DNA of 26,554 nt. It comes from a virus. Location of the stretch: the IMG/VR virus record IMGVR_UViG_3300048589_000219, positions 1 through 26,554 of that record; one strand, written 5' to 3'. The notes under the pieces are model-generated. The model made no database searches. It had not been told where the DNA came from and was given only the letters and a program-made list of their open reading frames with translations. Both the position numbers and the translations under genes were made by a program. Shown here one piece after another: positions 4,859-26,528 of this stretch (positions are counted from its first letter, which is position 1; every line of letters starts with the position of its first letter).

Positions 4859-5101
4859 TTAATTCCCCCGTGCCGTATACAGCGGCTCACCGAATTGATC
4901 GGTAATCCCCCCGGTGTGAATCTTCACAGCGGTATCACAGGCGGGGCATGGGATGAAGTTCACCGGCTGCTTGCCGTGCTCCTTGTAGGTCAGGATCACG
5001 TCAGTTGCCTCAACCTGCAACACCTTGCTGCATCCGATGCACTTGAAGTGCTTTCCAACCGCCCACGGACTACCCGTATGCGCGTGCCGGATAATTTTCA
5101 T
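4859..5101 (-). CDS. Small zinc-ribbon protein, 80 aa
   Basis: Two CxxC knuckles (C21xxC24 and C52xxC55) 28 residues apart give a typical zinc ribbon that binds one zinc ion, usually to contact nucleic acid or another protein. The flanks show no other domain. ATG 5101 overlaps the stop of the resolvase gene as ATGA, and its own stop touches the polymerase start, so it is translated between the two. The position suggests a small accessory factor of the replisome or resolvase, which is inference only. Confidence 0.8.
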   Translation of the reverse strand: MKIIRHAHTGSPWAVGKHFKCIGCSKVLQVEATDVILTYKEHGKQPVNFIPCPACDTAVKIHTGGITDQFGEPLYTARGN

Positions 5102-5505
5102 TTGGTATCGTCCTCCTTCAGAATGGTCGCTACGAAGTACAGGATGTGAGCATAGGCATCAGCCGCGTGGGAATCGCCCACCACAGCCTTTGCCTTGCTC
5201 ACATACGCTTTTCGGAACTGAGGGGGTTGCACGAACACCCTCAGTCCGAATAGCGTGCAGAAGTGCTCGATGAGGCCGAGCAACTTCAGAGTGTGTATTG
5301 CCGCCTTTGTGCGGTATCCGCCGCCGACGAAGTTCTCGACAAGAACAAGTACGTTTTCCCCGCTCTCCGCTCTGCTACGTGCTGCGTTGAGTGCGGCTCC
5401 GATTTCGGACACATTGCGCGTTTGGACGGCGTGTACGTGTCCGCTCTCTGTATCAAGTTCGGCTATGCCGGTCGTTTCGCCGGGGTCAAAGGCAACAATC
5501 CACAT
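5098..5505 (-). CDS. RuvC-like Holliday junction resolvase (RNase H fold)
   Basis: A 135-aa protein with RuvC/RNase H-fold motifs: FD7PGETTG in the first strand, VLVE57N in the fourth, and a C-terminal DSHAAD116AYAH helix. Acidic residues at these places bind the two metals used to cut branched DNA. The length matches compact phage resolvases, which are shorter than bacterial RuvC. It would resolve recombination or replication intermediates. The gene starts at ATG 5505, 7 nt after the stop of the DUF669-like gene; the upstream GGGGAT could act as ribosome site, but the C-run between makes it weak, so coupling to the upstream gene is likely. Confidence 0.82.
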   Translation of the reverse strand: MWIVAFDPGETTGIAELDTESGHVHAVQTRNVSEIGAALNAARSRAESGENVLVLVENFVGGGYRTKAAIHTLKLLGLIEHFCTLFGLRVFVQPPQFRKAYVSKAKAVVGDSHAADAYAHILYFVATILKEDDTK

Positions 5506-14935: not shown

Positions 14936-14957
14936 GAGTAGGGGTTTCCCCCTACTC
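14936..14957 (-). other. GAAA-tetraloop hairpin after the RtcB gene
   Basis: On the - strand, GAGTAGGGG and CCCCTACTC form a perfect 9-bp stem closed by a GAAA loop, overlapping the RtcB stop codon. No T-tract follows, so it is not a standard terminator. A GNRA-capped stem here may protect the upstream mRNA end or slow ribosome entry on the next gene. Confidence 0.55.
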
Positions 14958-16151
14958 TGCCGCCCGTGTTTGTCCCTTGACCGTCATAATCGGTGTATAC
15001 GTGTCGGCCACATACACCAAGTCCTCTTGCAAGGCGATTACCCGGTCAATGTCCTTATATGCGCCCGGTGCCTCATCAACGTATTCCAATCCCGCCTGTG
15101 AGTACGTCCCCGCAAGCGATGCCTGAAACTCGTTAATCGTGATCGAACGCTTTGCTTCACCACGGCTCATGGTCCGTCCCGCGCCGTGTGAGCACGACTC
15201 AAAGCTATCGGTATTTCCCTTACCGATCACCTTGTAGCTCTTGGAACCCATGCTCCCCGGAATCAAGCCGATTTCAGAGAACCGCGCACTGGTCGCACCC
15301 TTTCGGTGCAGCACCATATCGCCGTCCAATTGTGCGTAGTTGTGTGGCGTGTCGTGAATAGTGGACTGACTGAGCACACTGGTGATGCCCCGTTCCTGAA
15401 GCACATCCGCAAATGCTGACAGAACCGCCGTCATCATACGCTCTCGGTTGAGTCGCGCATAATCAATGGCCCATTGCATATCGTGCAGATAGTTCTGTCC
15501 TTCAACCGTTTCCAGCGACAAGTGTGCGAGGTCACGCGGTACACGGGTCTTTGTCTGCGTTACAAATTGCTCTGCCTGCTGGTTGTAGTGGTTGGCGATC
15601 CGAAGCCCGATGTGTCTGGAACCAGAGTGCAGCATGAACCCAATGAAGCCACGGTCGTTTACCTGTGCTTCAATAAAGTGGTTGCCACCACCAAGGGTAC
15701 CGATCTGGTACGCCCCCTTCGTGTCCACAAGTTCTTGCAATTCCCGCGCTCGGAGCGGTTCTAGCTTCAAGTGTCCGAGTGTGTGCGGATACTTGTGCGC
15801 GTTGAATCCCATCGGTACGGCACGCCGTACCTTCGTTGCCCACGCCTGCCAGAAGTCCGCGTTCATCGCCTCACGGTCGAACGGCATGGTCGTTTGCGCG
15901 TGGCGCATACCACACCCAATGTCCACGCCAACCGCGTTCGGGATAACGGCCAACTCGGTCGGCAACACACAGCCGATGGTTACTCCGACGCCAAGGTGAC
16001 AGTCAGGCATAACGGCAATGTGCGGACCAAGAGCCGGATGCCCCGCTGCGGCCATAAGCTGACTCATCGCCTGCGGTTCCATCTCATCCAACGGAAGCCA
16101 GCTACGAATCTCACGCCCGTTTCCACCAAGAAAGGTTGTATAGGTTCCCAT
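14952..16151 (-). CDS. rtcB: RNA ligase RtcB
   Basis: A 399-aa protein with all RtcB signatures: MPDCHLG at 48-54, VGVDIGCG at 74-81 (metal ligands D77 and C80), GTLGGGNHFIE at 151-161, HSGSRH at 175-180, HRKGAT at 282-287, and SHGAGR at 321-326, where H322 is the histidine that is guanylated. The lysine near the end (K392 in MTVKG) fits the GTP site. The enzyme joins RNA 2',3'-cyclic phosphate or 3'-phosphate ends to 5'-hydroxyl ends with GTP and manganese. It is full length with no broken motif. On a mobile element it could mend tRNAs cut by host anticodon nucleases, which is inference. ATG 16151 follows the zinc-ribbon gene by one base; no archease gene is seen. Confidence 0.97.
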   Translation of the reverse strand: MGTYTTFLGGNGREIRSWLPLDEMEPQAMSQLMAAAGHPALGPHIAVMPDCHLGVGVTIGCVLPTELAVIPNAVGVDIGCGMRHAQTTMPFDREAMNADFWQAWATKVRRAVPMGFNAHKYPHTLGHLKLEPLRARELQELVDTKGAYQIGTLGGGNHFIEAQVNDRGFIGFMLHSGSRHIGLRIANHYNQQAEQFVTQTKTRVPRDLAHLSLETVEGQNYLHDMQWAIDYARLNRERMMTAVLSAFADVLQERGITSVLSQSTIHDTPHNYAQLDGDMVLHRKGATSARFSEIGLIPGSMGSKSYKVIGKGNTDSFESCSHGAGRTMSRGEAKRSITINEFQASLAGTYSQAGLEYVDEAPGAYKDIDRVIALQEDLVYVADTYTPIMTVKGQTRAAE

Positions 16152-16807: not shown

Positions 16808-17332
16808 CTAGTCGGCTACTGTCCGTTCAAAGTCATAGTACGCAAGCGGTTTCGCGTACATCATTTGCTCCCACCACACCGGTTTGACGTTCATCATCCG
16901 ATCTTGGAGCGCCTGCCAGTCATCTTGTGTGACCGGTTCAAGGTCATTTACTTTCGGAAATATTTCGTCGCCGCGCTCGGGGTACTGATCCTGAAAGAGC
17001 AACCGCCCTCCGAAGAATTGTCCAACGGTACGCAGGACTGCAACCGTCCCCGGTGTGGAGCGTCCGAAGATACCGCGCCCTCCAAGGTCCATCTCATATG
17101 AGAAGAACAGTGGTTGCTGGACGGTAAGCGTATCGAACTCCCACCGGGTTAGCTCCGGAAAGTTGTGATCCACAAAATGCGTTCGCGCTCCGTGGACACT
17201 GACAAGTCGTTGCTGGTTGCGTAACGGGCCGCGCTCTGGTGGACACCCAAGCGCAATGCCCGTCACGGTCTGTACCCAATGGTACCGCGCCTCAATAGGC
17301 AGATAGAGTTCCGCGCATACGGTCGCTGGCAT
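16808..17332 (-). CDS. Hypothetical protein, 174 aa
   Basis: I do not recognise this protein. It appears soluble and mainly beta in the middle (THFVDHNFPELTRWEFDTLT, PLFFSYEMDLGGRG) with a helix near the end (DDWQALQDRMMNV). No cysteine pairs or known catalytic motif stand out. ATG 17332 overlaps the stop of the peptidase gene (TGATG), so it is probably made by re-initiation from the same mRNA. AGGTG lies just upstream. Confidence 0.75.
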   Translation of the reverse strand: MPATVCAELYLPIEARYHWVQTVTGIALGCPPERGPLRNQQRLVSVHGARTHFVDHNFPELTRWEFDTLTVQQPLFFSYEMDLGGRGIFGRSTPGTVAVLRTVGQFFGGRLLFQDQYPERGDEIFPKVNDLEPVTQDDWQALQDRMMNVKPVWWEQMMYAKPLAYYDFERTVAD

Positions 17333-18588
17333 CAGGCACCTACCCGAATCCGCGCACGCTGCTGCTTTGACGAAGCGACGGATGCAACCGCCGTCCGTGC
17401 GACGGCTCTCGCCTCACCCTCATAGAGTTGGCATACCATGCAGAAGTATTCTTCCTCTGCGGTATCCCACATCATGTTAATGTTGGTGTCGCACAGCGGA
17501 CAAGCCGGATCAATCACCGAACCCATTGCCGTCTCATCGTCGGAACCACCACGCAGGTAGGCCGCAATATCCTCTTTCGTGTATTCCTCAGACTCACCCT
17601 CACCGGTCACTTCGTAGAAGCTGCCGTCTAGGTACGCTTCGGTTGCGGCTCGTTTCTTCTCCATGTAGTCGTCAAACGACTCATAGAGTACGCCGTTAAT
17701 AGTAACGCTTGATCGGCCAGTAGCAACTGCTTTAGTTCCGGCTGTTTCGGTGGACTCGTACTTGTCCCGGCTGTAGTAGGAACCGTACCCGTAGTTGTAG
17801 CTGGAAACGTACCGGCCACGACTTTTCTTGTCGGTATCGGTGTGAAACCATTGCTGATCGGCAAGGTTCTCGCAAATCTCCGTAAAGAGTCCGAGTGTTG
17901 CCGCCACATCCTGAATCGACACCATCTCCTTCGATGAGTGTGCGTTGTAGTACCCACAGGAAACGTTCGCACAGGCAATCGGAAGCCCGTTGTTCTTCAA
18001 CTGGATTACATCGGAGATGGAACCCCAATCGTAGGACTTGTATCCATAAACGGACAGGTACGGTGCAATCGCTTCTTCGAACTCATCTCCGAACAGTTCT
18101 GTTCCCGCTCCTACCCGAATGAAGTCACTGTTCCCGTTGCGGTCCCCTTGGAGCACGAAGGAACAGTCCACGAAGAAGTCCATGTCGGCCTCTCGGGAAC
18201 CGACACACCCGATTTCCTCATCTCGGAAGAACACAGCCTTTGCAGCCGGAAGTGTGTTCAAAAGCGAAAGCGCAAGGAAGATACCTACCTTGTCATCGCC
18301 GCCTACGCCGGTCGTGTCCATGTTCTTCGGGTCAATGGCGAAGATAAGGTCATCGGCAACCACGACCTTATACTGGTTCTTGGCCTTGATCCGGTGTACC
18401 GTGTCCGTGTGGGCCACGATGCACGGGAAGATTGCCGCGTCCCCCTTGGTCGCGTAGATGTTTCCATCCTTCACCACCGTGCGAACGCCCATGTCCGCAC
18501 ACTTGGAGAGAATGAATTGGTTCATGCGTTGGGTATCACGCGAATGGCTCTGAACCCTGAGCGTTTTGAGTAGCAGTCCTGTGTCCAA
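17332..18588 (-). CDS. M20/M42-like zinc metallopeptidase with C-terminal zinc ribbon
   Basis: A 418-aa protein with the co-catalytic metal site of M20/M42 peptidases: H60-x-D62 (AHTDTVH), D98/D99 (GGDDKVG), E124E125 (FRDEEIG), D149 and H217 (NAHSS), in the right order. The DDKVG and DEE segments look most like the PepT tripeptidase group. After the enzyme (about 1-245) comes a linker rich in S, Y and G (250-290) and a zinc ribbon C363xxC366...C383xxC386. It may cleave small peptides; why a phage-like element needs this is unclear. The frame is open to 18849, but the promoter at 18618-18646 lies inside that extension, so translation must begin later: TTG 18588 has AAAGGA 6 nt upstream. Confidence 0.86.
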   Translation of the reverse strand: MDTGLLLKTLRVQSHSRDTQRMNQFILSKCADMGVRTVVKDGNIYATKGDAAIFPCIVAHTDTVHRIKAKNQYKVVVADDLIFAIDPKNMDTTGVGGDDKVGIFLALSLLNTLPAAKAVFFRDEEIGCVGSREADMDFFVDCSFVLQGDRNGNSDFIRVGAGTELFGDEFEEAIAPYLSVYGYKSYDWGSISDVIQLKNNGLPIACANVSCGYYNAHSSKEMVSIQDVAATLGLFTEICENLADQQWFHTDTDKKSRGRYVSSYNYGYGSYYSRDKYESTETAGTKAVATGRSSVTINGVLYESFDDYMEKKRAATEAYLDGSFYEVTGEGESEEYTKEDIAAYLRGGSDDETAMGSVIDPACPLCDTNINMMWDTAEEEYFCMVCQLYEGEARAVARTAVASVASSKQQRARIRVGA

Positions 18589-18617
18589 TGCTTGTCCTTT
18601 CTCCTGACTAGGATTCA

Positions 18618-18646
18618 AGTATACCACGTCCCCCTCGTACGTGCAA
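18618..18646 (-). promoter_or_regulatory. Promoter of the peptidase-RtcB operon
   Basis: TTGCAC (18641-18646), 17 bp, TATACT (18618-18623) on the - strand. The -35 is flanked by an imperfect inverted repeat (CCCCTTG...CGAGGGG). It lies upstream of TTG 18588 and decides the start of the peptidase. Confidence 0.85.
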
Positions 18647-18665
18647 GGGGCTTTGGCAAGTTGTG

Positions 18666-18713
18666 CTCGGGATAACCCACCGGGGTACAGGTTTTTAGAC
18701 CGTCCCCGGCGAG
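18666..18713. other. Structured hairpin in the 175-bp gap before the peptidase operon
   Basis: The gap 18647-18763 holds no gene. In it CCGGGG/CCCCGG (18680-18685, 18704-18709) closes a long stem with a T-rich loop, and CTCG/CGAG (18666-18669, 18710-18713) pairs outside it. It may end the transcript of the upstream zinc-knuckle gene, although no T-run follows on the - strand. Confidence 0.4.
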
Positions 18714-18763
18714 TTGCCCTTCCCGATAGGCTTGGGAACATCACGCCCGTTGCGCGTCCCCGT

Positions 18764-20653
18764 TTAGAATGGTAGGTCAAGCTCATCCTCCACATCAAGC
18801 GGGTCAACATCAGCCGTCCAGCTATGCGTCCACATATTCGTATTCTCATCGAATGCGGGAGTTGATAGCGCCCGGAGATTATTCATCGCCGTGTTGTAAT
18901 CAACCCTATGGACGAACAGCGGCTCACGCGGTTGAATTGTGTACGAGTAGTCCGGTTGGTAGCTGAATACCCCCGGTTCCGCTGAACGGAACGTTATGGT
19001 CGGAGCGGACGGAGACGGGGCATTATCACCCGTCTCCGATGCCTCACGCCGCAAACGCGCACGTTCGGCACGACGTGCTACTGCTTCTCGATTGCTCTGG
19101 CATGTTGGGCATTCGAACGTGTCTCCACGCTGTGTGAACCGGTTCGTGCGCCGTGCTGTGTCTCCACAGTAAGAGCACCGGAGTCCTTGGCATTCGCCGC
19201 ACATCCGCTCGGTGTACTCCTGACGGTAGGAGTGATCGACGTTGAACCGGAGCGTCTGCATGTTCTCGGTGTCTACCCGTGAACATCGCTGGCACGAATG
19301 AAGGTCGTAGCAATCCGCGCAAATCGTCGTCCGATCAGGCGTATGCGGGTTCATCAACACTTGCAGCGCATTGTCCATCGACACGGCGTTGTGGCAGATT
19401 GCACAGGGCTGGTCACGTAGCCACGTCTCGTAGCACGTTCGACAGACTGGACTCGTTTCGCCATTCCGGTAGTAGGACGGGTAATAGAAGTTCAACCGGT
19501 TCCCGTTTCTCTCATAGAGATAGTCATTACAGTTCTGGCATCGGTAGTCATCGACGCACAGACTGCACAACTGCCCCTCCGGGCCGTGTCCACGCATCCG
19601 ATGCTCACAGGCTGTGCAAACGTGCTGCATCCGACAGTCGTAGCACATCCCGTCTCGGAAGTTGTTCCGGTCGCTTTCCGTTCCGCACTCAGAGCATGTC
19701 TGAATGAACGGATACCCGCTTGTACTGGTCAACTCATAAGTTGCGTGTGCCCCACGCTGGTGATTCTTGACACGGATGGTGCCCTCATCCTCATCAATGA
19801 ATAGGTACTTGAACGTGTCGCAGTACGGGTAGCCCCGGCTTGAACCTGTCAGCAAGTCTACCGACAGGAACAACTGCTTACCGAGTTCTCCGGGCACATC
19901 CCACAGGGTTTCTCGTTCGAAGCTGTTCGCGTGCCGGATGATGTATCCCTGTTCAGCGGCCCAATCACGCAGCATGTGAACAACGGTGTCGTTCCCATAC
20001 GCCCGATCCATTGCCCACCCCTGTTCAACCGTATTCCACAGGAGCGCACGGCCAATCAGCAAGTCGCTCTGATCCGTCGCAATGACCATCTTCACCGCGT
20101 CCGGATTATTCACGTAGAAGTCCATGTAAGGTTGGCACTCATCGTACCGCATGCACGACGTTCGCAGCGTACCGGTGCCACTTGGCGCGTAGTGATTCCC
20201 GTCATACCAATGACGGATAGCCTCACCCTCCACAATACGAACCGATTGCCGGTCCTTCAGTACCCGTGCCCGGAGATGGTTGGTGAACTTCTCAAAGTCG
20301 CTGTCGGTCAGCGTCTTTAGTGTCTCCGGTGTCAGTAGCGCACGGGCAACCTTTGCCGGTCGTCCCGCCTGTCGCAGCTTCTTATTCCATTCGATCCCTG
20401 TATCCAACGCCGTCTCAATCCGGGCCGTTGGCAGGTAGGTCAGTTCCCCCTCACCATTAATGGAGATGTAGTCACCAAATGCCTGATGCGTTCGGGCCAG
20501 CGGCTCACTCGTTGAACCGTACCAACTCCGGCGATACATGAGCGCCATAGCTACCCGGTCAGCGTAGTCGTAGATGAGCGTGTCAAGGATGTTTCGGAGT
20601 GACGCGGAGTAGGTAAGAATGTACGGGGTCAGGTCTTTAGCCATGTGCGTCAA
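18764..20653 (-). CDS. Multi-zinc-knuckle protein with CMRY/GRALLW core and SSB-like C-tip (paralogue A)
   Basis: A 629-aa protein of unknown function. Residues 70-285 form a core shared with the 805-aa protein at 24111-26528: TYLP, then GTLRTSCMRYDECQ (161-173), FYVNNPDAVKM, LIGRALLWNT and AMDRAYGND (215-222). Residues 320-518 contain twelve CxxC pairs, enough for about six zinc sites in tandem. The last residues (DVEDELDLPF) copy the acidic, PF-ending tip of bacterial SSB, which docks many DNA repair proteins; this is a resemblance seen here, not a proven contact. TTG 20653 follows AAGGAGG by 3 nt; ATG 20644 is the alternative. It overlaps the 65-aa gene and is last in the unit from the 21218-21246 promoter. 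Confidence 0.82.
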   Translation of the reverse strand: MTHMAKDLTPYILTYSASLRNILDTLIYDYADRVAMALMYRRSWYGSTSEPLARTHQAFGDYISINGEGELTYLPTARIETALDTGIEWNKKLRQAGRPAKVARALLTPETLKTLTDSDFEKFTNHLRARVLKDRQSVRIVEGEAIRHWYDGNHYAPSGTGTLRTSCMRYDECQPYMDFYVNNPDAVKMVIATDQSDLLIGRALLWNTVEQGWAMDRAYGNDTVVHMLRDWAAEQGYIIRHANSFERETLWDVPGELGKQLFLSVDLLTGSSRGYPYCDTFKYLFIDEDEGTIRVKNHQRGAHATYELTSTSGYPFIQTCSECGTESDRNNFRDGMCYDCRMQHVCTACEHRMRGHGPEGQLCSLCVDDYRCQNCNDYLYERNGNRLNFYYPSYYRNGETSPVCRTCYETWLRDQPCAICHNAVSMDNALQVLMNPHTPDRTTICADCYDLHSCQRCSRVDTENMQTLRFNVDHSYRQEYTERMCGECQGLRCSYCGDTARRTNRFTQRGDTFECPTCQSNREAVARRAERARLRREASETGDNAPSPSAPTITFRSAEPGVFSYQPDYSYTIQPREPLFVHRVDYNTAMNNLRALSTPAFDENTNMWTHSWTADVDPLDVEDELDLPF

Positions 20654-20834
20654 GTTCCTCCTTGTCTGCTTGACGAAGCATTCTCACCATAGAGAGTGCT
20701 TCACGGAACGTACTCGCCTTAATGGTGTGGTACCGTTCCTCGTTTTTGTTCCCGCTGCGTCGGTTTTCACGTTCCTCATGTTCGTGCCACGCGATCACCT
20801 GTTTAAGCTGTTCTTCATACCGATCCAGAACCAT
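20637..20834 (-). CDS. Hypothetical charged helical protein, 65 aa
   Basis: I do not recognise this protein. Nearly every residue fits a long charged helix (RYEEQLKQVIAWHEHEEREN, then FREALSMVRMLRQADKEEL), so a coiled coil is likely. ATG 20834 has AGGGG upstream and begins 3 nt after the preceding stop. It overlaps the start of the zinc-knuckle gene, with which it may be co-translated. Confidence 0.7.
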   Translation of the reverse strand: MVLDRYEEQLKQVIAWHEHEERENRRSGNKNEERYHTIKASTFREALSMVRMLRQADKEELDAHG

Positions 20835-20837
20835 CGC

Positions 20838-21173
20838 TTACCCCTGACTCAACCGGTACTCTGCGAACACCATGCCCTTGTGCATCATCGTGTCCCCGGT
20901 TGGCTTGTATCCTGCCGCATTCAGCGCGGCCTCTGCCGCCTTGATGTGGCGATTCGTGGTGGCGCTGTTCCGCTCGGTGTTAAGCCAGAACGCAGAGTTG
21001 TCCGTAAAGTCCATGATGATCGGGAAATGCGGACCATAGCTCTGCAACTCACGGCACTCTCTGCCGTTCGGGTACGTCACCGTGTCAACCTTCATGCTCT
21101 CCAATCGGTAGGCCGGTCGCCGTCCCTCAATGAACGCCGTCGCAATTGCCATTGGAGTCGTGAGGCTTGCCAT
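20838..21173 (-). CDS. Hypothetical protein, 111 aa
   Basis: I do not recognise this protein. It has a beta-rich middle (YRLESMKVDTVTYPNGRECR, FPIIMDFTDNSAFWLN) and a helix followed by a strand at the end (HIKAAEAALNAAGYKP, MVFAEYRLS). ATG 21173 lies downstream of AAGGAG (10 nt, long) and of a near-perfect promoter, so it is the first gene of the unit that ends with the 629-aa zinc-knuckle protein. Confidence 0.75.
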   Translation of the reverse strand: MASLTTPMAIATAFIEGRRPAYRLESMKVDTVTYPNGRECRELQSYGPHFPIIMDFTDNSAFWLNTERNSATTNRHIKAAEAALNAAGYKPTGDTMMHKGMVFAEYRLSQG

Positions 21174-21217
21174 GTGTTTGTGTCTCCTTCCCGGTGTCTT
21201 GTCTCACCGTCAACTAC

Positions 21218-21246
21218 AGTATACGCGATCACGCACTGGCTGTCAA
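21218..21246 (-). promoter_or_regulatory. Consensus promoter of the zinc-knuckle A unit
   Basis: TTGACA (21241-21246), 17 bp, TATACT (21218-21223) on the - strand, in the 79-bp gap between two genes. Transcription should start near 21211 and read the 111-aa, 65-aa and 629-aa genes. Confidence 0.9.
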
Positions 21247-21252
21247 GGGGGT

Positions 21253-21603
21253 TTACTTGACTTCGATCCAGCTTCCGTCGTCCATCACCTGACAGCCGAA
21301 CGACTCCACATAGGAGAAGAAGCTGTCTGTGGGGTACGCGCCCATCCGATAGGCGCGGCGTGCGGCCTCATTGCACGGGCCGTCAACGCGGACGTATACC
21401 CCTTCAGTCAGTCGCCCCTCATCGCACCCCACTTGGTGCATGACCAATGAATCCCTCACCCACGCCTGACCGAGTTCTTCCGCCCACCGCTGGCACTCCA
21501 TGTTGACCGGTGCAGCGGGACGTGCCGCCTGCATGGTCGCATCCGTGTCCGCAAACAGTGATGCCAGCACCAGACCGATACCGAGAATGAATCCCTTTCC
21601 CAT
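21253..21603 (-). CDS. Exported protein with four cysteines, 116 aa
   Basis: The N-terminus (MGKGFILGIGLVLASLFADT) has a short basic start, a hydrophobic core and small residues after it, as expected of a signal peptide cut near residues 18-26. The mature part has four cysteines (C37, C60, C77, C104), which could form two disulfide bonds outside the cytoplasm. The function is unknown; surface or superinfection roles are possible for such phage genes. ATG 21603 comes 4 nt after the stop of the preceding gene, with GGAGG about 12 nt upstream. It is the last gene of the unit started at 21821-21849. Confidence 0.72.
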   Translation of the reverse strand: MGKGFILGIGLVLASLFADTDATMQAARPAAPVNMECQRWAEELGQAWVRDSLVMHQVGCDEGRLTEGVYVRVDGPCNEAARRAYRMGAYPTDSFFSYVESFGCQVMDDGSWIEVK

Positions 21604-21607
21604 GTGT

Positions 21608-21796
21608 TTACTTTCCCTCCTTCGATGCTGGCTCTACGAGTCCGCTCCGTAGCGTCATCGTTATCTTTGCGGACAACTCCACCGCTGCATCTTCGGCATC
21701 CTCCGGCGTGTCCGCCATCTGTCGCCGCACGAATTGATTGAGAAGCACCTGTGCAATTCGATCCTCAATCACGTTCCACTGTCGCTCCGTGTCCAT
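21608..21796 (-). CDS. Hypothetical helical protein, 62 aa
   Basis: I do not recognise this protein. It is an acidic helical protein (WNVIEDRIAQVLLNQFVRRQ, then DTPEDAEDAAVELSAKITMT). ATG 21796 is chosen because GAAGGAGG lies 4 nt upstream and because the promoter at 21821-21849 starts transcription just before it; the longer frame would begin inside the promoter. Confidence 0.75.
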   Translation of the reverse strand: MDTERQWNVIEDRIAQVLLNQFVRRQMADTPEDAEDAAVELSAKITMTLRSGLVEPASKEGK

Positions 21797-21820
21797 CGTG
21801 CCTCCTTCGCTGTTGACTCT

Positions 21821-21849
21821 AGTATACACGACTGTCAGTCAAGTGTCAA
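21821..21849 (-). promoter_or_regulatory. Consensus promoter with tandem TTGAC
   Basis: TTGACA (21844-21849), 17 bp, TATACT (21821-21826) on the - strand. The spacer repeats TTGACT and contains GACTGACAGTC, an 11-bp inverted repeat. It drives the 62-aa and exported-protein genes. Confidence 0.9.
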
Positions 21850-21852
21850 GGG

Positions 21853-22092
21853 CTAGATCGTGCATCCCGCCCGAACACCCCGGCGTGCCCGTGCCTCATC
21901 CTCCCACGGCTTGACCGTTGCCTGTACCTGAGCGGGAGAACGCCACCCACCCTGCTCAACCTTATCCATGATGAGCGATGCAAGATGCCCTGACATATGG
22001 GATGGCCAGAACGTTGCGTGCTCACTATCAAGGTCACTCAGCACGTCGTAGAGAATACCGTCCAACACCGACTCCAACTCATCTCGGTTCAT
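21853..22092 (-). CDS. Hypothetical protein, 79 aa
   Basis: I do not recognise this protein. It is helical with an acidic first half (NRDELESVLDGILYDVLSDLD) and a basic end (EDEARARRGVRAG). ATG 22092 is selected because GGAAGGGAG lies 5 nt upstream; the longer frame overlaps the small membrane-protein gene. It is last in the unit from the 22590-22618 promoter. Confidence 0.72.
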   Translation of the reverse strand: MNRDELESVLDGILYDVLSDLDSEHATFWPSHMSGHLASLIMDKVEQGGWRSPAQVQATVKPWEDEARARRGVRAGCTI

Positions 22093-22105
22093 TGTATCTC
22101 CCTTC

Positions 22106-22228
22106 CTAGAAGAACGCACGGACACACAGGTCCGTAAGCCAGCCGATTATCACTCCAACGTAGAGCACAATACTGGCTTTTCCGAACAGGTACGCGGCCT
22201 GCTCATCCTTCGTAAACTCGGTGTCCAC
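22106..22228 (-). CDS. Small membrane protein, 40 aa
   Basis: A short gene beginning at GTG 22228, which overlaps the stop of the previous gene by one base (TAGTG). TTGGAGG lies about 10 nt upstream. The product has a charged start (MDTEFTKDEQ) and one hydrophobic span (from ASIVLYVGVIIGWL to CVRAFF) long enough to cross the membrane. Function unknown. Coding status rests on the tight packing and the ribosome site. Confidence 0.58.
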   Translation of the reverse strand: MDTEFTKDEQAAYLFGKASIVLYVGVIIGWLTDLCVRAFF

Positions 22229-22359
22229 TAGGCAAAGACCTCCAATAGCACCGCGACAACGGCACCGATGATGACACAGACAAGGAACAGCCCGATTGCT
22301 GTATTGATCTGTTCGGTGTACTCATCCCACTCGTGCAGCGGGTCTTTTTGTTTACTCAC
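22228..22359 (-). CDS. Small single-pass membrane protein, 43 aa
   Basis: GTG 22359 overlaps the stop of the 70-aa gene as GTGA, with AAGGAGG 5 nt upstream. The product has a soluble, charged N-terminus (SKQKDPLHEWDEYTEQ) and a hydrophobic C-terminal helix (about residues 19-43, IGLFLVCVIIGAVVAVLLEV). It resembles tail-anchored small proteins; the role is not known. Confidence 0.65.
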   Translation of the reverse strand: MSKQKDPLHEWDEYTEQINTAIGLFLVCVIIGAVVAVLLEVFA

Positions 22360-22568
22360 TTAGCCTCCTTCGTAAAATACCGCACCGGCTCAATCTCGAT
22401 GAGCGTGCTCACCAAGTCAAGCCGGATACCCGTTCCAAACTTGATGACTCGATCCGCAACGATGCGTTCGATTGCTTCCTCCTTGCTATCGAAGATACCA
22501 AAAAATTCCACTCCACCGCACCCATCGTACGGTTGCGTGTTGTGCTGGTACGCGATCCACTTTTCCAT
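22356..22568 (-). CDS. Hypothetical protein, 70 aa
   Basis: I do not recognise this protein. It begins MEKWIAYQHNTQPYDGCGGVEFFGIFDSKEEA, a strand-turn-helix pattern seen in small phage proteins that relay an environmental or DNA signal, but this is only similarity of shape. ATG 22568 has AAGGAG 5 nt upstream and lies just after the transcription start of the 22590-22618 promoter, which rules out the longer frame. Confidence 0.75.
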   Translation of the reverse strand: MEKWIAYQHNTQPYDGCGGVEFFGIFDSKEEAIERIVADRVIKFGTGIRLDLVSTLIEIEPVRYFTKEAK

Positions 22569-22589
22569 GCGCTCTCCTTGTGTTCCATC

Positions 22590-22618
22590 AGTATAGGCGA
22601 CCATGAGTCAAGAGTCAA
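22590..22618 (-). promoter_or_regulatory. Consensus promoter with tandem TTGACT
   Basis: TTGACT (22613-22618), 17 bp, TATACT (22590-22595) on the - strand, with a second TTGACT in the spacer as at 21844-21849. It is the first promoter after the non-coding region and drives four small genes. Confidence 0.88.
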
Positions 22619-22634
22619 GGCCGCGCCAGAAAAT

Positions 22635-22734
22635 AAAAGCGCGCGCCCGCCGACAGAAAAAATACGCGCGCCCCGTTTTGGCCAAAAAAAAAGCGCGCGC
22701 GCCAAAATCGCCGTAGAAAAAAAGCGCGCGCCCG
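22635..22734. repeat. Four A-tract plus alternating GC repeats
   Basis: The unit AAAA-GCGCGCGCCCG occurs four times with variations (22635-22649, 22657-22675, 22684-22703, 22717-22734). A-tracts at intervals of 22, 27 and 33 bp should bend the DNA, and the GC alternation can adopt left-handed form under supercoiling. No gene lies here. Confidence 0.75.
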
Positions 22735-22810
22735 AAAATGGCGACTTTTTCTAAGGTCACAACGCAAATCGGCGTTGGTGTGGGCGACATTGGTGGATTG
22801 CGTTATGGCA

Positions 22811-22920
22811 TTAGCATATAACCCCTACATATATATATGACGAGACAAATGTCTTATACATATATACGTATATATGTATATACATATAATGCACATATAT
22901 TGATATACACTATATCAACT
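22811..22920. other. AT-rich island with a perfect 26-bp palindrome, possible DNA unwinding element
   Basis: About 110 bp composed largely of AT/TA steps. At 22855-22880 two 13-base arms (TATACATATATAC and its complement) form a perfect palindrome without a spacer. AGAC/GTCT (22844-22854 area) forms a small hairpin beside it. Such easily melted DNA next to direct repeats is typical of replication origins. Confidence 0.6.
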
Positions 22921-23075
22921 ATCATTACTGAAGCAGCTTTCCAATTGCAGGTCCGACTTGGTTGGCCGATCCCATGACGAAGCCCGAATGCAGTCGAAAC
23001 AGATGATTGTTCGATGGGTGTCGAAGAACTTCTATAGGAGTCAACAAACTTCTGACGGATATTCATAAAAACACT

Positions 23076-23114
23076 CTAAGCGAATCGCTATAGAAACCCC
23101 TAAGCGAGTCGCTA
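23076..23114. repeat. Two copies of a palindromic site CTAAGCGARTCGCTA, 24 bp apart
   Basis: CTAAGCGAATCGCTA (23076-23090) and CTAAGCGAGTCGCTA (23100-23114) differ only at the central base. Each contains AGCGA/TCGCT arms, suited to a dimeric protein. The 24-bp period places both sites on nearly the same face of the helix. Confidence 0.7.
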
Positions 23115-23275
23115 CCGGAAAGGTTCACCCGGAAAGATACCCGGAAAGGTATCCCCGGAAAGGTGACGCAGGCGCGTGCTTAGGAGCCTGAATCGGGAAA
23201 GATCGGACGTGCGTACCCGGAAAGATCAGGCGTGCGTGCGTCCGGAAACATACGCGTGCGTACGCGTTCGGAAAC
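23115..23275. repeat. Iteron-like array of CCGGAAAG direct repeats
   Basis: CCGGAAAG is found at 23115, 23129, 23141, 23155 and 23217, with variants at 23194 (CGGGAAAG), 23242 (CCGGAAAC) and 23268 (TCGGAAAC). The first four are 12-14 bp apart. GTGCGT motifs lie between the later copies. All are in the same direction, as expected of iterons bound by an initiator or partition protein. Confidence 0.68.
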
Positions 23276-23316
23276 CACCCGTGCGAGACGGTTATGCCGA
23301 TTTTGTGATATGCGAA

Positions 23317-23345
23317 TTGCCGCGACCGGTCAATTCATTTATGAT
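23317..23345 (+). promoter_or_regulatory. Possible + strand promoter in the non-coding region
   Basis: TTGCCG (23317-23322), 17 bp, TATGAT (23340-23345). It would start a short RNA near 23352 that reaches the hairpin at 23422-23470. A weaker match than the seven - strand promoters. Confidence 0.35.
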
Positions 23346-23367
23346 GTAAAGTAAAGAAGCATTCTTG

Positions 23368-23402
23368 AGTTCTTTGTCAACTTAGTTGTTTAGTTCTTTG
23401 TC
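23368..23402. repeat. Direct repeat AGTTCTTTGTC, two copies 24 bp apart
   Basis: Identical 11-bp copies at 23368-23378 and 23392-23402, with the same 24-bp period as the palindromic pair at 23076-23114. Possible protein-binding sites. Confidence 0.5.
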
Positions 23403-23421
23403 CACAATTACACAAGACGAT

Positions 23422-23470
23422 ACCCCTACGGGGTACGTGTCCTATTTTGGACGTCATACCCCGTAGGGGT
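23422..23470. other. Large hairpin in the non-coding region
   Basis: Fourteen-base arms (ACCCCTACGGGGTA at 23422-23435 and its complement at 23457-23470) enclose a second, imperfect stem (GTCC/GGAC) and a TATTTT loop. Each arm is itself nearly palindromic, so cruciform alternatives exist. It could be a terminator of both directions or a replication structure; no long T-run follows. Confidence 0.6.
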
Positions 23471-24046
23471 TTACCGTACGTTTTGCGGTTTGTTCCGTGT
23501 TTGGAATCGGAGTCCGGACGGGGTTTCGTGTGTCCGGTTTGCTCGGTTGCTCGGAGACTCGGACGGGGTATGCGTCTCGGTTTCGTACCGTGTTCAGTGC
23601 TGGCACTTGGACGCGGTTTCCGTCTCCGTGTCCAGCACCACGGAGACAACCGGAGACGAACGGAGACGGTACGAAACCGGAGACACGACCGAACACACAT
23701 TGCCGCATACCGCGTGCCGTGTGACGCGTTGTGGCGTGTCACGGCATGTACTCCGAGCGTTGCTCGGTTGCTCGGTTTGGCGTCCGATTCTGTACCCGTT
23801 GCGGACGGGGTTTGTACGGGGTTTCGTGCGTGTGCTGGACTCGGACTCCGAAACCACCTATAGCGTGGTATGTCCAGCATCGACGGAGACGCGCCTAGCA
23901 TCGTCCGAGCGGCAATATTTTGACGTTAGCAGTATGTGTACCCTAGTCCGCTCGGTTTCGTGCCGTACGTGGCATCCTAGCGCGTCAATGCTACGGAAAC
24001 CGAAACAATACGCACGGGGTACCGCGTGGCACCGTCTCCGAGACAC
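23471..24046. other. Non-coding stretch with short-word repeats
   Basis: I see no supported gene in this stretch. It is rich in recurring words: CGGAGAC at 23641, 23651 and 23661 (exact 10-bp period) and at 23678; GCTCGGTTGCTCGG twice (near 23539 and 23762); ACGGGGTTTCGTG twice (near 23517 and 23816). A perfect 9-bp hairpin GTCTCCGTG/CACGGAGAC lies at 23622-23647. Open frames exist on both strands, but their products look random and have no ribosome sites. Confidence 0.55.
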
Positions 24047-24050
24047 GAAA

Positions 24051-24072
24051 ACACGGGTACGTGTACCCGTGT
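24051..24072 (-). terminator. Intrinsic terminator of the 805-aa gene
   Basis: On the - strand ACACGGGTAC and GTACCCGTGT form a perfect stem (10-base arms around AC), followed by TTTTCG, about 40 nt after the stop codon at 24111. The best rho-independent terminator of the window; it marks the start of the non-coding region. Confidence 0.75.
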
Positions 24073-24110
24073 CTCCGTGCGGGTATGCGGTTGTCTGGAC
24101 TCGGTACGCG

Positions 24111-26528
24111 TTACCGAGACGCGTTGTTTATGCGTGTCCGGTTGTTTGCGTACGTCACGGGATCAATACCGAGCGGGGTATACCGATACCGATACGCTGG
24201 CATGTACTGCCATTGCTCGGAGTCCGGAGTATTGCCGTTCAGCATGTCACCGAACAACGGGTACCGAGACTCGGACGGGGTTTCGGACACCGTGTCCACA
24301 ATGCATACGTTACCCGTTGCGGGTACCGTAATTCCGTGTCCGAGTGCGGACACGCATCGTCCGGCGTCGTACCCGTGCGGGTACGGCAATTCAAACAAAC
24401 GCGGTTGCCGCTGGCACGCAACGCACTCCGTGTGCCGTGTGTAGTCCGCTCGGTAGGAGTCGTTCACGTCGTGCCACGAACGAAACCGGAGACACACGGT
24501 ACAACGGTTGTCCAGACAATCCGTACACACGGAGTCCGTATCCAAGTTGTCCACAACCGCTTCACACACGCGGCACGTATGCGACTCCGAGCAATCCGAG
24601 CAATACCCGTTCGTTAGGTCGTCTCGGTCGTCCACGACGGTACCGCAATCGTTGCATTGATAACCCGGCAAGCAACGCGGGCAATACCCGTCCGTGTGAT
24701 TGTCTCCGTAGTCAAACCGTCCGCAATGCTGGCACGTCCGCTCGGAGTAGCAATCCGGACAAAGATCGTACCCGTTATCATCGTCCGCATCGTACGACGT
24801 GCCGCACTCCGAGCACTCTAAATACGCGTTGTGCGTTTCGTAATATCCGGACGTGGATTCCAACACGTAGTACATGCCGTCCGGCAAGTAGTGCTCGGAC
24901 GTGGCAAGCGTACCCGTGTCCGGATGCAAGTAACGGAACGTGTCCATATACGGGTATTTGTCAAACCGAGCGTTACGGACGGTAACGGGGCTTGCATCGT
25001 CCGTGTACCCGTGTTCCGTGGCGTAGGTGTTGAAAAGACGCTGTATAACGTCGTTTCCGTAGACACGATCCATGTACGTATCTCCGGAGTCGGTACGCCA
25101 CAGCAACGCACGTCCAAGCAGCTCCCCGTCATCGTTCCGATAAGTCAGCAGCGAAACCGTCTCCGGATTGTCCGTATAAATCCGGAAATAGGACTGGCAC
25201 GACCGATACCGCATGCAGGAATGAGCCAGCGTACCGATACGATGAGACGGTGCGTACCCGTCTTCCAAGTACGCATCTCGGATTGCGTCACCGGTCACAA
25301 TTTCAAACGTTCCAAAAGACCGGGAGGCATACGCGCGAATTGCATTCGTTACGGTTTCGTAGTCTGCATCCGCGAATGCATCCGGAGTGCGTATTAGCAT
25401 CCGGAGAACTTTAGACGGTTTGGCGGTTTGGCGCCCGGTTGCATCATATTCGTAATACTGCACGTCTTTACTGATTTTCGATGACGGCAGATAGGACAAC
25501 CGGTTGCCACTGTCTGCAATGTCGACAAACGACGCTTTACGGATACACGTTTGCGGCATTCGGACGTACGCATGAACCGTATCCGAGACGGATAGCCCAG
25601 ACTCCGTGTCCATTGCCACCACGGACACGGAAACGTTGTGTTGTGTGTCGTACCCGGAGTCCAGCAGTGCCGTTGCCAGTGCATACCCGCTTTCATCGGA
25701 CGAAGTTTCGTACATGAACGCATGCAACGCGGCACGGACGGACTCGGAAAGCGTTGCGGCAGTGTTCGTATTCCGGTTTCCGATTACATCACTACCGTCC
25801 GGAGACACGGACAACGCGGTAACGGTTTGGCGTATAGGGGTACCGTACGTGTCTAAAACACGCTCGGAGACGGGTACGGCAAACAACATACGGTTTGGCG
25901 CGGTAGTTGTCTCATATTCCGAGCGCGCATCGTCCAGCGTGTCCAGACTGTACGCGTACCCGTACGTGTTTCCCGTGTGCCACGTCATAACCACGAACGA
26001 ATGAATCAGGGTACCCGTAGGGATATGGACGGGGTATCCGGTTTCACGGTTAAGACGTTTCGCGGTTTCCGTCAATGCGGCAATGTCCGTCACGGTATTC
26101 GTCTCCGTTTCCGTTTCCGTTTCCGTGCTGGACTCCGAGTCCGTCTCGGAGTCCGTACGCCACAACGTTGCAAGCGTTTCCACAATGTCTGTACGACTGC
26201 ACTCCGTCTCGGTTGTCGTACCGTCCGTGTACCGCGTGTGAATCCGTGCGGACGTCGTGACGTATCCGAGCGTTTCATTGTGTGCGATGGTGTCCAGCGT
26301 GGTTCCGACCACGGACGAACACGTATCGCCGTAACACGTTCCAAGTTCATACGGGGTATCCGCATGCGTGGCGTACAACCGGACGGAGACGTATGCAATC
26401 ACACGGTATCGCCGTTCGCGTGCGTCTCCGTGAACGGAGACGTTAAATGCATCGTCCGTGCCGTACACAACCATTGCATTGTTAATGCGTCGTGCCAGTC
26501 GTGCGGTTTCGCTTTCCGTCCGTGCCAT
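24111..26528 (-). CDS. Multi-zinc-knuckle protein with CMRY/GRALLW core, threonine-rich (paralogue B)
   Basis: An 805-aa protein of unknown function, paralogue of the protein at 18764-20653. Shared core at about 343-535: SYLPSSKI, GTLAHSCMRYRSCQ (432-444), IYTDNPETVSLL, LLGRALLWRTD (470-480), YMDRVYGND (485-493) and YPYMDTFRYL. Residues 572-705 carry ten CxxC pairs. The first 330 residues have no counterpart in paralogue A and include an acidic, threonine-rich low-complexity stretch (TETETETETNT near 136-146). The protein is poor in lysine and rich in T, D, S, Y and R. It lacks the SSB-like tail of paralogue A. ATG 26528 has CGGAG 9 nt upstream. The DNA is crowded with words such as GTCCG, CGGAG and GTACC, unlike the rest of the window. 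A terminator follows the stop. Confidence 0.85.
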   Translation of the reverse strand: MARTESETARLARRINNAMVVYGTDDAFNVSVHGDARERRYRVIAYVSVRLYATHADTPYELGTCYGDTCSSVVGTTLDTIAHNETLGYVTTSARIHTRYTDGTTTETECSRTDIVETLATLWRTDSETDSESSTETETETETNTVTDIAALTETAKRLNRETGYPVHIPTGTLIHSFVVMTWHTGNTYGYAYSLDTLDDARSEYETTTAPNRMLFAVPVSERVLDTYGTPIRQTVTALSVSPDGSDVIGNRNTNTAATLSESVRAALHAFMYETSSDESGYALATALLDSGYDTQHNVSVSVVAMDTESGLSVSDTVHAYVRMPQTCIRKASFVDIADSGNRLSYLPSSKISKDVQYYEYDATGRQTAKPSKVLRMLIRTPDAFADADYETVTNAIRAYASRSFGTFEIVTGDAIRDAYLEDGYAPSHRIGTLAHSCMRYRSCQSYFRIYTDNPETVSLLTYRNDDGELLGRALLWRTDSGDTYMDRVYGNDVIQRLFNTYATEHGYTDDASPVTVRNARFDKYPYMDTFRYLHPDTGTLATSEHYLPDGMYYVLESTSGYYETHNAYLECSECGTSYDADDDNGYDLCPDCYSERTCQHCGRFDYGDNHTDGYCPRCLPGYQCNDCGTVVDDRDDLTNGYCSDCSESHTCRVCEAVVDNLDTDSVCTDCLDNRCTVCLRFRSWHDVNDSYRADYTRHTECVACQRQPRLFELPYPHGYDAGRCVSALGHGITVPATGNVCIVDTVSETPSESRYPLFGDMLNGNTPDSEQWQYMPAYRYRYTPLGIDPVTYANNRTRINNASR

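Follow-up and report, generated by a model that had tools for sequence, protein, structure and literature searches.

The stretch of DNA analyzed here, hereafter the window, comprises the 26,554 nucleotides of viral record IMGVR_UViG_3300048589_000219 and carries two genes for large proteins that share a conserved core, the SCM core. The first, P0001, is a 629-aa protein encoded on the minus strand at 18764..20653 and identified by ORF prediction, blastp and a family HMM; its start codon is TTG, with an ATG three codons further in. The second, P0002, is an 805-aa paralogue on the minus strand at 24111..26528 with an N-terminal region of ~330 aa that has no assignment. The conserved core spans residues 61-311 of P0001 by HMM envelope (19721..20473, minus) and residues 333-559 of P0002 (24852..25532, minus). 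Tandem CxxC motifs are found in both proteins, 12 in the tail of P0001 (19100..19696, minus) and 10 in P0002 (24414..24815, minus). A third minus-strand ORF at 17332..18849 encodes an MH-clan (M20/M28/M42-type) zinc exopeptidase, assigned on the basis of a match to Pfam Peptidase_M42 (E 1.7e-5), its active site and its adjacency to P0001. This ORF and the 3' end of P0001 share 86 bases, the start codon of the peptidase being uncertain, and the peptidase ends in a C-terminal CxxC..CxxC ribbon.

The initial annotation of this DNA had reported the two large ORFs at 18764-20653 and 24111-26528 as paralogues with zinc-knuckle tails. The coordinates are correct, the strand is minus for both, and the paralogy is borne out by full-length blastp (E 1e-47, 31% over 443 aa). 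The cores alone (~230 residues) align at 5e-41 with 34% identity; their Smith-Waterman score is 317, whereas 500 shuffles reached at most 57. The cysteine tails alone align too, with a score of 145 compared with at most 80 in 500 shuffles. The description of the tails holds insofar as they consist of tandem CxxC motifs. However, a zinc knuckle is CCHC by definition, and because the motifs in P0001 and P0002 are CxxC pairs the term is a misnomer. A Pfam search of P0001 at 1e-3 returned no family, the DnaJ/BSD2 cysteine-rich zinc domain (BSD2_CRD) included. Between the two genes lies a region of small ORFs within which the cumulative GC skew of the window turns, near 23 kb. The same region contains short direct repeats at 22632-22742 and 23115-23236, of AAAAAAAGCGCGCGC-type and CCGGAAAGG-type, and is a candidate origin.

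The core residues singled out in the initial annotation are real and near-invariant across 109 distinct cores. In the numbering of the 629-aa protein, Y150, S166, C167, R202, D216 and Y219 are each present in 108/109 cores, the remaining row being a gap. These are accompanied by Y180, W206, P276 and D279 (107 each), M168 and N183 (104 each) and R217 (102), such that the almost invariant set reads S-C-M...Y..N...R...W...D-R-x-Y...P-Y-x-D. As had been anticipated, this core lies outside any characterized family by profile, and its near-invariant polar residues fall in a region modeled with good confidence (pLDDT 88.6). No function emerged when the core, or complete members, were compared with Pfam, NCBIfam and PADLOC, and PHROGs returned five unnamed families that each match 1-6 of 79 members. 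A PDB-chain profile search gave six matches (best E 0.056) that were taken as chance. A search of a limited open-access collection, at the level of titles and abstract openings, brought up no recognizable account of the family. Likewise, the core-peptidase pair is not named in the excerpts available of PMC7824862, which concerns jumbo-phage GNATs, peptidases and zinc-ribbon expansions, or of PMC10770324.

The family is widespread in phages and not peculiar to the element represented by the window. By tblastn, relatives of P0001 are present in 12 phage records and relatives of P0002 in 15; these include Cellulophaga phages and five megaphage records (635-735 kb, two of them with identical length and identical match positions), as well as Thermus phages that match P0002 only. 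The family HMM scores P74-26 gp1 of Thermus and its P23-45_stolb3 counterpart at ~1e-8. When viral contigs were searched with an alignment of seven sequences, 139 relatives were recovered among 205 candidates, 80 of which were kept, and the core HMM matches 133 ORFs in the collected loci at E <= 1e-3, near-copies counted. Six further relatives reside in genome contigs: two in Bacteroidota MAGs, three loci in Cysteiniphilum and one in a proteobacterial MAG. The core is multiplied in very large genomes, with 19, 14, 9 and 8 matches in four megaphage records, the highest number belonging to the 735-kb megaphage. Tandem arrays of 3-5 neighboring core genes were seen on the huge-phage contigs L012, L017, L024, L036 and L052. 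Core relatives were also seen on two plasmid records, NZ_OY725812.1 (Parabacteroides, E 8e-9) and OY726014.1 (Phocaeicola, E 0.01), which are perhaps phage-plasmids.

Two diverged copies in one element had been read initially as distinct partners or an ancient duplication. In a tree of 109 rows, whose deep branches are weak, the 629-aa copy pairs with L023 from another phage (97/95, starred), and the 805-aa copy, together with the near-identical copy in L008, is placed elsewhere with weaker support (85/95 with L082, not starred). Because the tree does not pair P0001 and P0002 as closest relatives, they represent either an old duplication or separate acquisitions. An ancient paralogy is thus compatible with the tree, and a simple duplication within the element is not favored by it.

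How general are the cysteine-rich tails? Among 109 members, a count that includes a few rows clipped at contig ends, 29 extend past the core by fewer than 40 residues, and in 46 the tail contains no CxxC. A zinc tail is therefore not a defining trait of the family. Matches to the DnaJ/BSD2-type cysteine-rich domain (BSD2_CRD) occur in 7 of 73 members scanned, with a best E of 1.2e-7. The protein at L100:592-2022 and other CxxC-free members carry acidic, nearly cysteine-free C-terminal repeats such as WSDYHDDYI, and by eye these resemble zinc-less variants of the CxxC repeat unit. These distributions bear on the idea that the proteins are zinc-dependent DNA- or RNA-binding or transcription factors in which the core is merely structural. 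The CxxC arrays of both window copies would suit such a role, as would the position of the corresponding podovirus gene (described below) upstream of primase. However, 75 of the 109 members are tail-less or have a tail without CxxC, the invariant residues sit in the core, and the partner is a peptidase, so we regard this as a very unlikely account of the family.

The initial annotation had proposed structure prediction and a fold search, and for the P0001 core this led to GNAT-like neighbors over model residues 132-260. The AlphaFold2 model of P0001 residues 1-320, built from a 79-row alignment, has a mean pLDDT of 88.6 and a pTM of 0.80. Foldseek against the PDB gave a best E of 0.01, with nothing below 1e-3; of the 50 matches listed, six (OrfE, ttk003001606) are not placeable from their titles, and the others, judged by their titles or known identities, are GNAT acetyltransferases or the GNAT-like FemX/L-PGS proteins. 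VIA-align placed AAC(3) first with Z 8.0, a value that by the program's own caution may mean merely a common arrangement, and of the 50 rows in its list almost all bear acetyltransferase names, aligned to model residues 132-260. This GNAT-like portion of P0001 corresponds to 19874..20260 (minus) as judged by the structural matches, and its arrangement resembles that of GNAT superfamily members such as AAC(3), RimI, VipF and SpeG. Matches in BFVD (17 below 1e-3) have no informative names. One BFVD row (rank 33, E 0.032) led to PcfJ (PF14284), which shares by eye a conserved C followed by Y; hhalign with three PcfJ sequences gave E 0.8 and 0.37, and the relationship is unsupported.

Does the core use acetyl-CoA as canonical GNATs do? 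GNAT motif A is a [RQ]xxGx[GA] loop that follows beta4. In the model, strand 212-220 (MDRxYGND) is followed by helix 222-234, and we take this to be the place of the acetyl-CoA loop in GNATs. Motif A is found at this position in 1 of the 108 cores that have the segment, and 22 cores contain the pattern at any position. A GNAT-like fold is therefore moderately supported by the model of P0001, whereas canonical membership in the superfamily is not, the loop being missing in 107/108 cores. There is, in addition, no detectable sequence relation to GNATs: when 79 cores were compared with Pfam and NCBIfam (E cut-off 0.1), the families listed, 25 of 26 for Pfam and all 17 for NCBIfam, included no GNAT model. 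These two observations weigh against the view that the core is an acetyl-CoA-dependent, Rac-type GNAT with a CoA loop that is simply divergent. The view draws on the GNAT neighbors of the fold and on Rac of the phiKMV group, which acts on RNAP, and we consider its probability to be low. Rac (LUZ19 gp28, Phikmvvirus) nevertheless provides the nearest functional precedent, as a phage-encoded GNAT tied to a proteolytic step. According to the parts available of PMC7552054, expression of Rac leads to cleavage of RNAP alpha although Rac itself has no protease activity; the effect depends on the predicted acetyl-CoA pocket and, by the authors' inference, on no further phage factor. Compared with the core family by description rather than by sequence, Rac differs in keeping the predicted acetyl-CoA pocket.

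The initial annotation named no functional partner for either protein and overlooked the adjoining metallopeptidase gene, which emerged from clustering of gene neighborhoods. The sample consisted of 83 loci after 22 duplicates or near-duplicates were dropped, with near-copies left in the window and L009 (same phage type), L087/L088 and L006/L030. The commonest neighbor family within 6 kb is the MH-clan metallopeptidase, found at 29/83 loci at a median distance of 0; the next-commonest occurs at 19/83 loci at a median distance of 1292. By HMM, the peptidase is present in 35/83 fetched flanks and absent from 48/83. It lies directly beside the core gene, on the same strand and with no intervening gene, at 24 loci (59/83 lack this arrangement). 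Among these 24 adjacent pairs, 17 are core-first and 7 peptidase-first, and the two ORFs overlap in 21. On a related contig, the sole peptidase in the 22 kb fetched adjoins the 629-aa copy, with none beside the 805-aa copy. Each of the six megaphage and Thermus records that were tested has a gene for a peptidase like the partner. The peptidase active site is intact: H147, D185, E211, E212, D236 and H304, which we take to be the metal ligands and catalytic Glu of an MH-clan exopeptidase, are each kept in 35/36 aligned rows. The adjacent metallopeptidase is thus likely to be a functional partner of the core protein, and it offers the most telling lead to what that protein does. An RtcB RNA ligase gene was also observed in the window at 14952-16151 (minus strand; Pfam E 5.5e-93), and RtcB lies near the SCM module in phi38:1 as well and at 6/83 loci, the window counted.

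A partnership of this kind need not involve two enzymes. The SCM protein could be a non-enzymatic adaptor, a substrate-recognition subunit that presents polypeptides to the peptidase through its core and tails. DnaJ/BSD2-type cysteine-rich domains bind polypeptides in known proteins, and their occurrence in 7/73 members fits this role, as do the overlap of core and peptidase genes in both orders and the presence of a C-terminal zinc-ribbon-like CxxC..CxxC on 20/36 aligned peptidases as well. However, the core's near-invariant residues (Y, S, C, R, W, D and Y) resemble an active site, 29/109 members are tail-less, and many copies are located away from any peptidase gene. On balance, an adaptor role is rather unlikely.

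The same two-gene arrangement is found in podoviruses of the Drulisvirus/Phimunavirus type. The number of phage records with a relative of the peptidase is 240, 382 or 402 according to the query used, mostly from Klebsiella, Pectobacterium and Vibrio, and in the records examined the gene just upstream of the podovirus peptidase encodes a 'hypothetical protein' of 516-713 aa. Relatives of this upstream protein are found in 310 phage records for KP-Rio gp08 (mostly Klebsiella and Vibrio) and in 75 for PPWS1 gp06. The genus tallies for peptidase and upstream gene, compared in total and not record by record, are nearly the same (Klebsiella 229/231, Vibrio 42/42, Escherichia 10/10, Shigella 4/4). 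The SCM gene directly precedes the peptidase in 10/11 podovirus records examined, a biased rate given that the records were chosen from matches to either gene (one of them, phi1_146045, has no Autographiviridae label); in the eleventh the two genes are separated by a small ORF on the opposite strand, and the peptidase annotation is split in two. The order 'hypothetical protein' followed by 'putative peptidase' in PhiM1_09/PhiM1_10 is that of the core module, and the same gene pair appears as KP34p10/KP34p11 in a published table. According to the available parts of PMC4411677 and PMC6115819, both genes are conserved in published comparisons and are early genes in PhiM1-like phages; these parts state neither a function for the upstream gene nor a tie to the peptidase, and the part available of PMC6834552 does not mention the peptidase.

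Are these podovirus proteins members of the same family? In nine aligned podovirus proteins S-C-M, Y, R, R-x-Y-G and P-Y-x-D are invariant and occur in the same order as in the core. PhiM1-type proteins accordingly share the SCM..R.Y..PY[LV]D set, but the D of DRxY is replaced and the divergence is great, with hhalign aligning the Autographi and core profiles over 183 columns at E 0.0026 and a probability of 11%. Single members are harder still to connect: KP-Rio gp08 scores a full-sequence E of 1.3 against the core HMM in a set of 12 proteins, and among 8232 ORFs at E <= 10 the core HMM matches none of KP-Rio gp08, PPWS1 gp06 and Ep4_007, which also go unmatched at E 10 when Pasto is added to the HMM. 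The connection is made by Rhizobium phage Pasto_004, whose gene adjoins a zinc peptidase and which scores 5.5e-11 with the Autographi HMM and 0.0066 with the core HMM. As a single-sequence query, Pasto_004 retrieves KP-Rio gp08 (1.1e-3) and two truncated P0002 copies (7e-4 and 1.2e-3), the full-length P0002 copy not being among the best 15 matches listed. Furthermore, every one of the 22 rows that follow Ep4 and Pasto in the Autographi HMM search of 8232 ORFs (E 0.014-4.4) is a core member, with several near-copies among them; chance ORFs mix in above E 5. Because Pasto_004 bridges both profiles, the early 'hypothetical' proteins of podoviruses, represented in 310 records, probably belong to the core family. 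The GNAT-like fold is unconfirmed for the Drulisvirus branch, since the model of the 557-aa Drulisvirus protein reaches a pLDDT of only 39.7.

Three Gram-positive records were reached through the peptidase. In Enterococcus phage VRE9_2 a peptidase of the same type lies between two hypothetical proteins (L166:2130-3329 and 4449-5456) that belong to one PHROG; these two show SSC/TTC..Y..R motifs by eye, with HMM similarity that is not significant, and are possibly a Gram-positive branch of the module. Brevibacillus phage Jenst gp021 (L106:692-2092) has TSCQ...ARA motifs and a DnaJ-like cysteine-rich tail; its gene lies on the strand opposite to the peptidase, 1.7 kb away. No candidate SCM-type protein was seen in the third, BcoS-136.

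Core copies that lack an adjacent peptidase often differ in their N-termini. Many jumbo-phage copies begin M..Y..F[ILV].E, a motif like the capsid-targeting sequence (CTS) of T4 Alt and internal proteins. The motif is enriched in copies without an adjacent peptidase, occurring in 36/84 such proteins versus 0/24 with one, compared with 30/1316 other genes of at least 100 aa; an earlier, slightly different pattern matched 33/103 core proteins. Both patterns were written after examples had been seen and follow the N-termini of T4 proteins, and the likeness is one of motif pattern, not of alignment to T4 sequences. Weak matches to an S77 prohead protease, all below the Pfam cut-off, were obtained in 7 of 28 records, many of which are fragments; all seven fall among the 16 CTS-group records (4/4 megaphages), with 0/12 in the others. 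For T4 internal proteins and Alt, both the function of the CTS and ejection are described in the portion available of PMC9026906. The core copies differ in being known from genes and not from virions, and the motif is absent in P0001 and P0002. Since many jumbo-phage copies have such a capsid-targeting-like N-terminus, they would probably be packaged and injected.

These features also bear on whether the module could serve a small-molecule or amino-acid pathway, in which a GNAT-like enzyme makes, and the peptidase/deacylase cleaves, an N-acyl amino acid or peptide for salvage or as a modified metabolite. The logic would be that of ArgA/ArgE for the making and cleaving of N-acyl amino acids; MH-clan enzymes include deacylases and dipeptidases, and one phage match is annotated as pepD, an aminoacyl-histidine dipeptidase. 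Nevertheless, the large variable tails, the 19 matches in a single genome and the CTS-like N-terminus suit protein targeting better, and we find such a pathway improbable.

Taken together, the conserved polar residues in a GNAT-like domain, the frequent exopeptidase partner, the protein-binding-type tails of some members and the many paralogues lead us to infer protein modification as the activity. We therefore propose, tentatively and as the explanation we prefer, that the core is the GNAT-like catalytic domain of a phage protein-modifying enzyme that acts early together with the exopeptidase. In this proposal, the catalytic domain would have a GNAT-like but divergent fold and work without the canonical acetyl-CoA loop, and early in infection it would act jointly with the co-expressed MH-clan zinc exopeptidase. 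The exopeptidase may prepare the acceptor terminus, make the donor, or remove or trim the modified residue. The variable tails, whether CxxC arrays, DnaJ-type cysteine-rich domains or acidic repeats, would anchor the enzyme to specific proteins of the host or the phage. The family would have multiplied in jumbo phages, with copies that have the CTS-like N-terminus packaged and injected.

A more specific version names a donor. FemX and L/F-transferases use aminoacyl-tRNA as donor, and a GNAT-fold enzyme with a donor of this kind, or another that is not acetyl-CoA, could tag protein termini, with the exopeptidase making or erasing the tag. Such a system would amount to a two-enzyme takeover, made early in small phages and delivered as injected multi-paralogue effectors in jumbo phages. 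We consider this version unlikely as it stands.

The significance of a protein-modifying role would lie in how common the module is. Many sequenced phages, cultured Drulisvirus and Callevirus phages included, carry the SCM-peptidase pair within their early region, and in the annotated records examined it is labeled 'hypothetical protein' beside 'peptidase'. With these genes united in a single family for which a fold, a partner and a candidate active site can be named, the function becomes directly accessible to tests in laboratory phages. Should the core protein indeed be a protein modifier, the pair would represent a common and overlooked step in host takeover.
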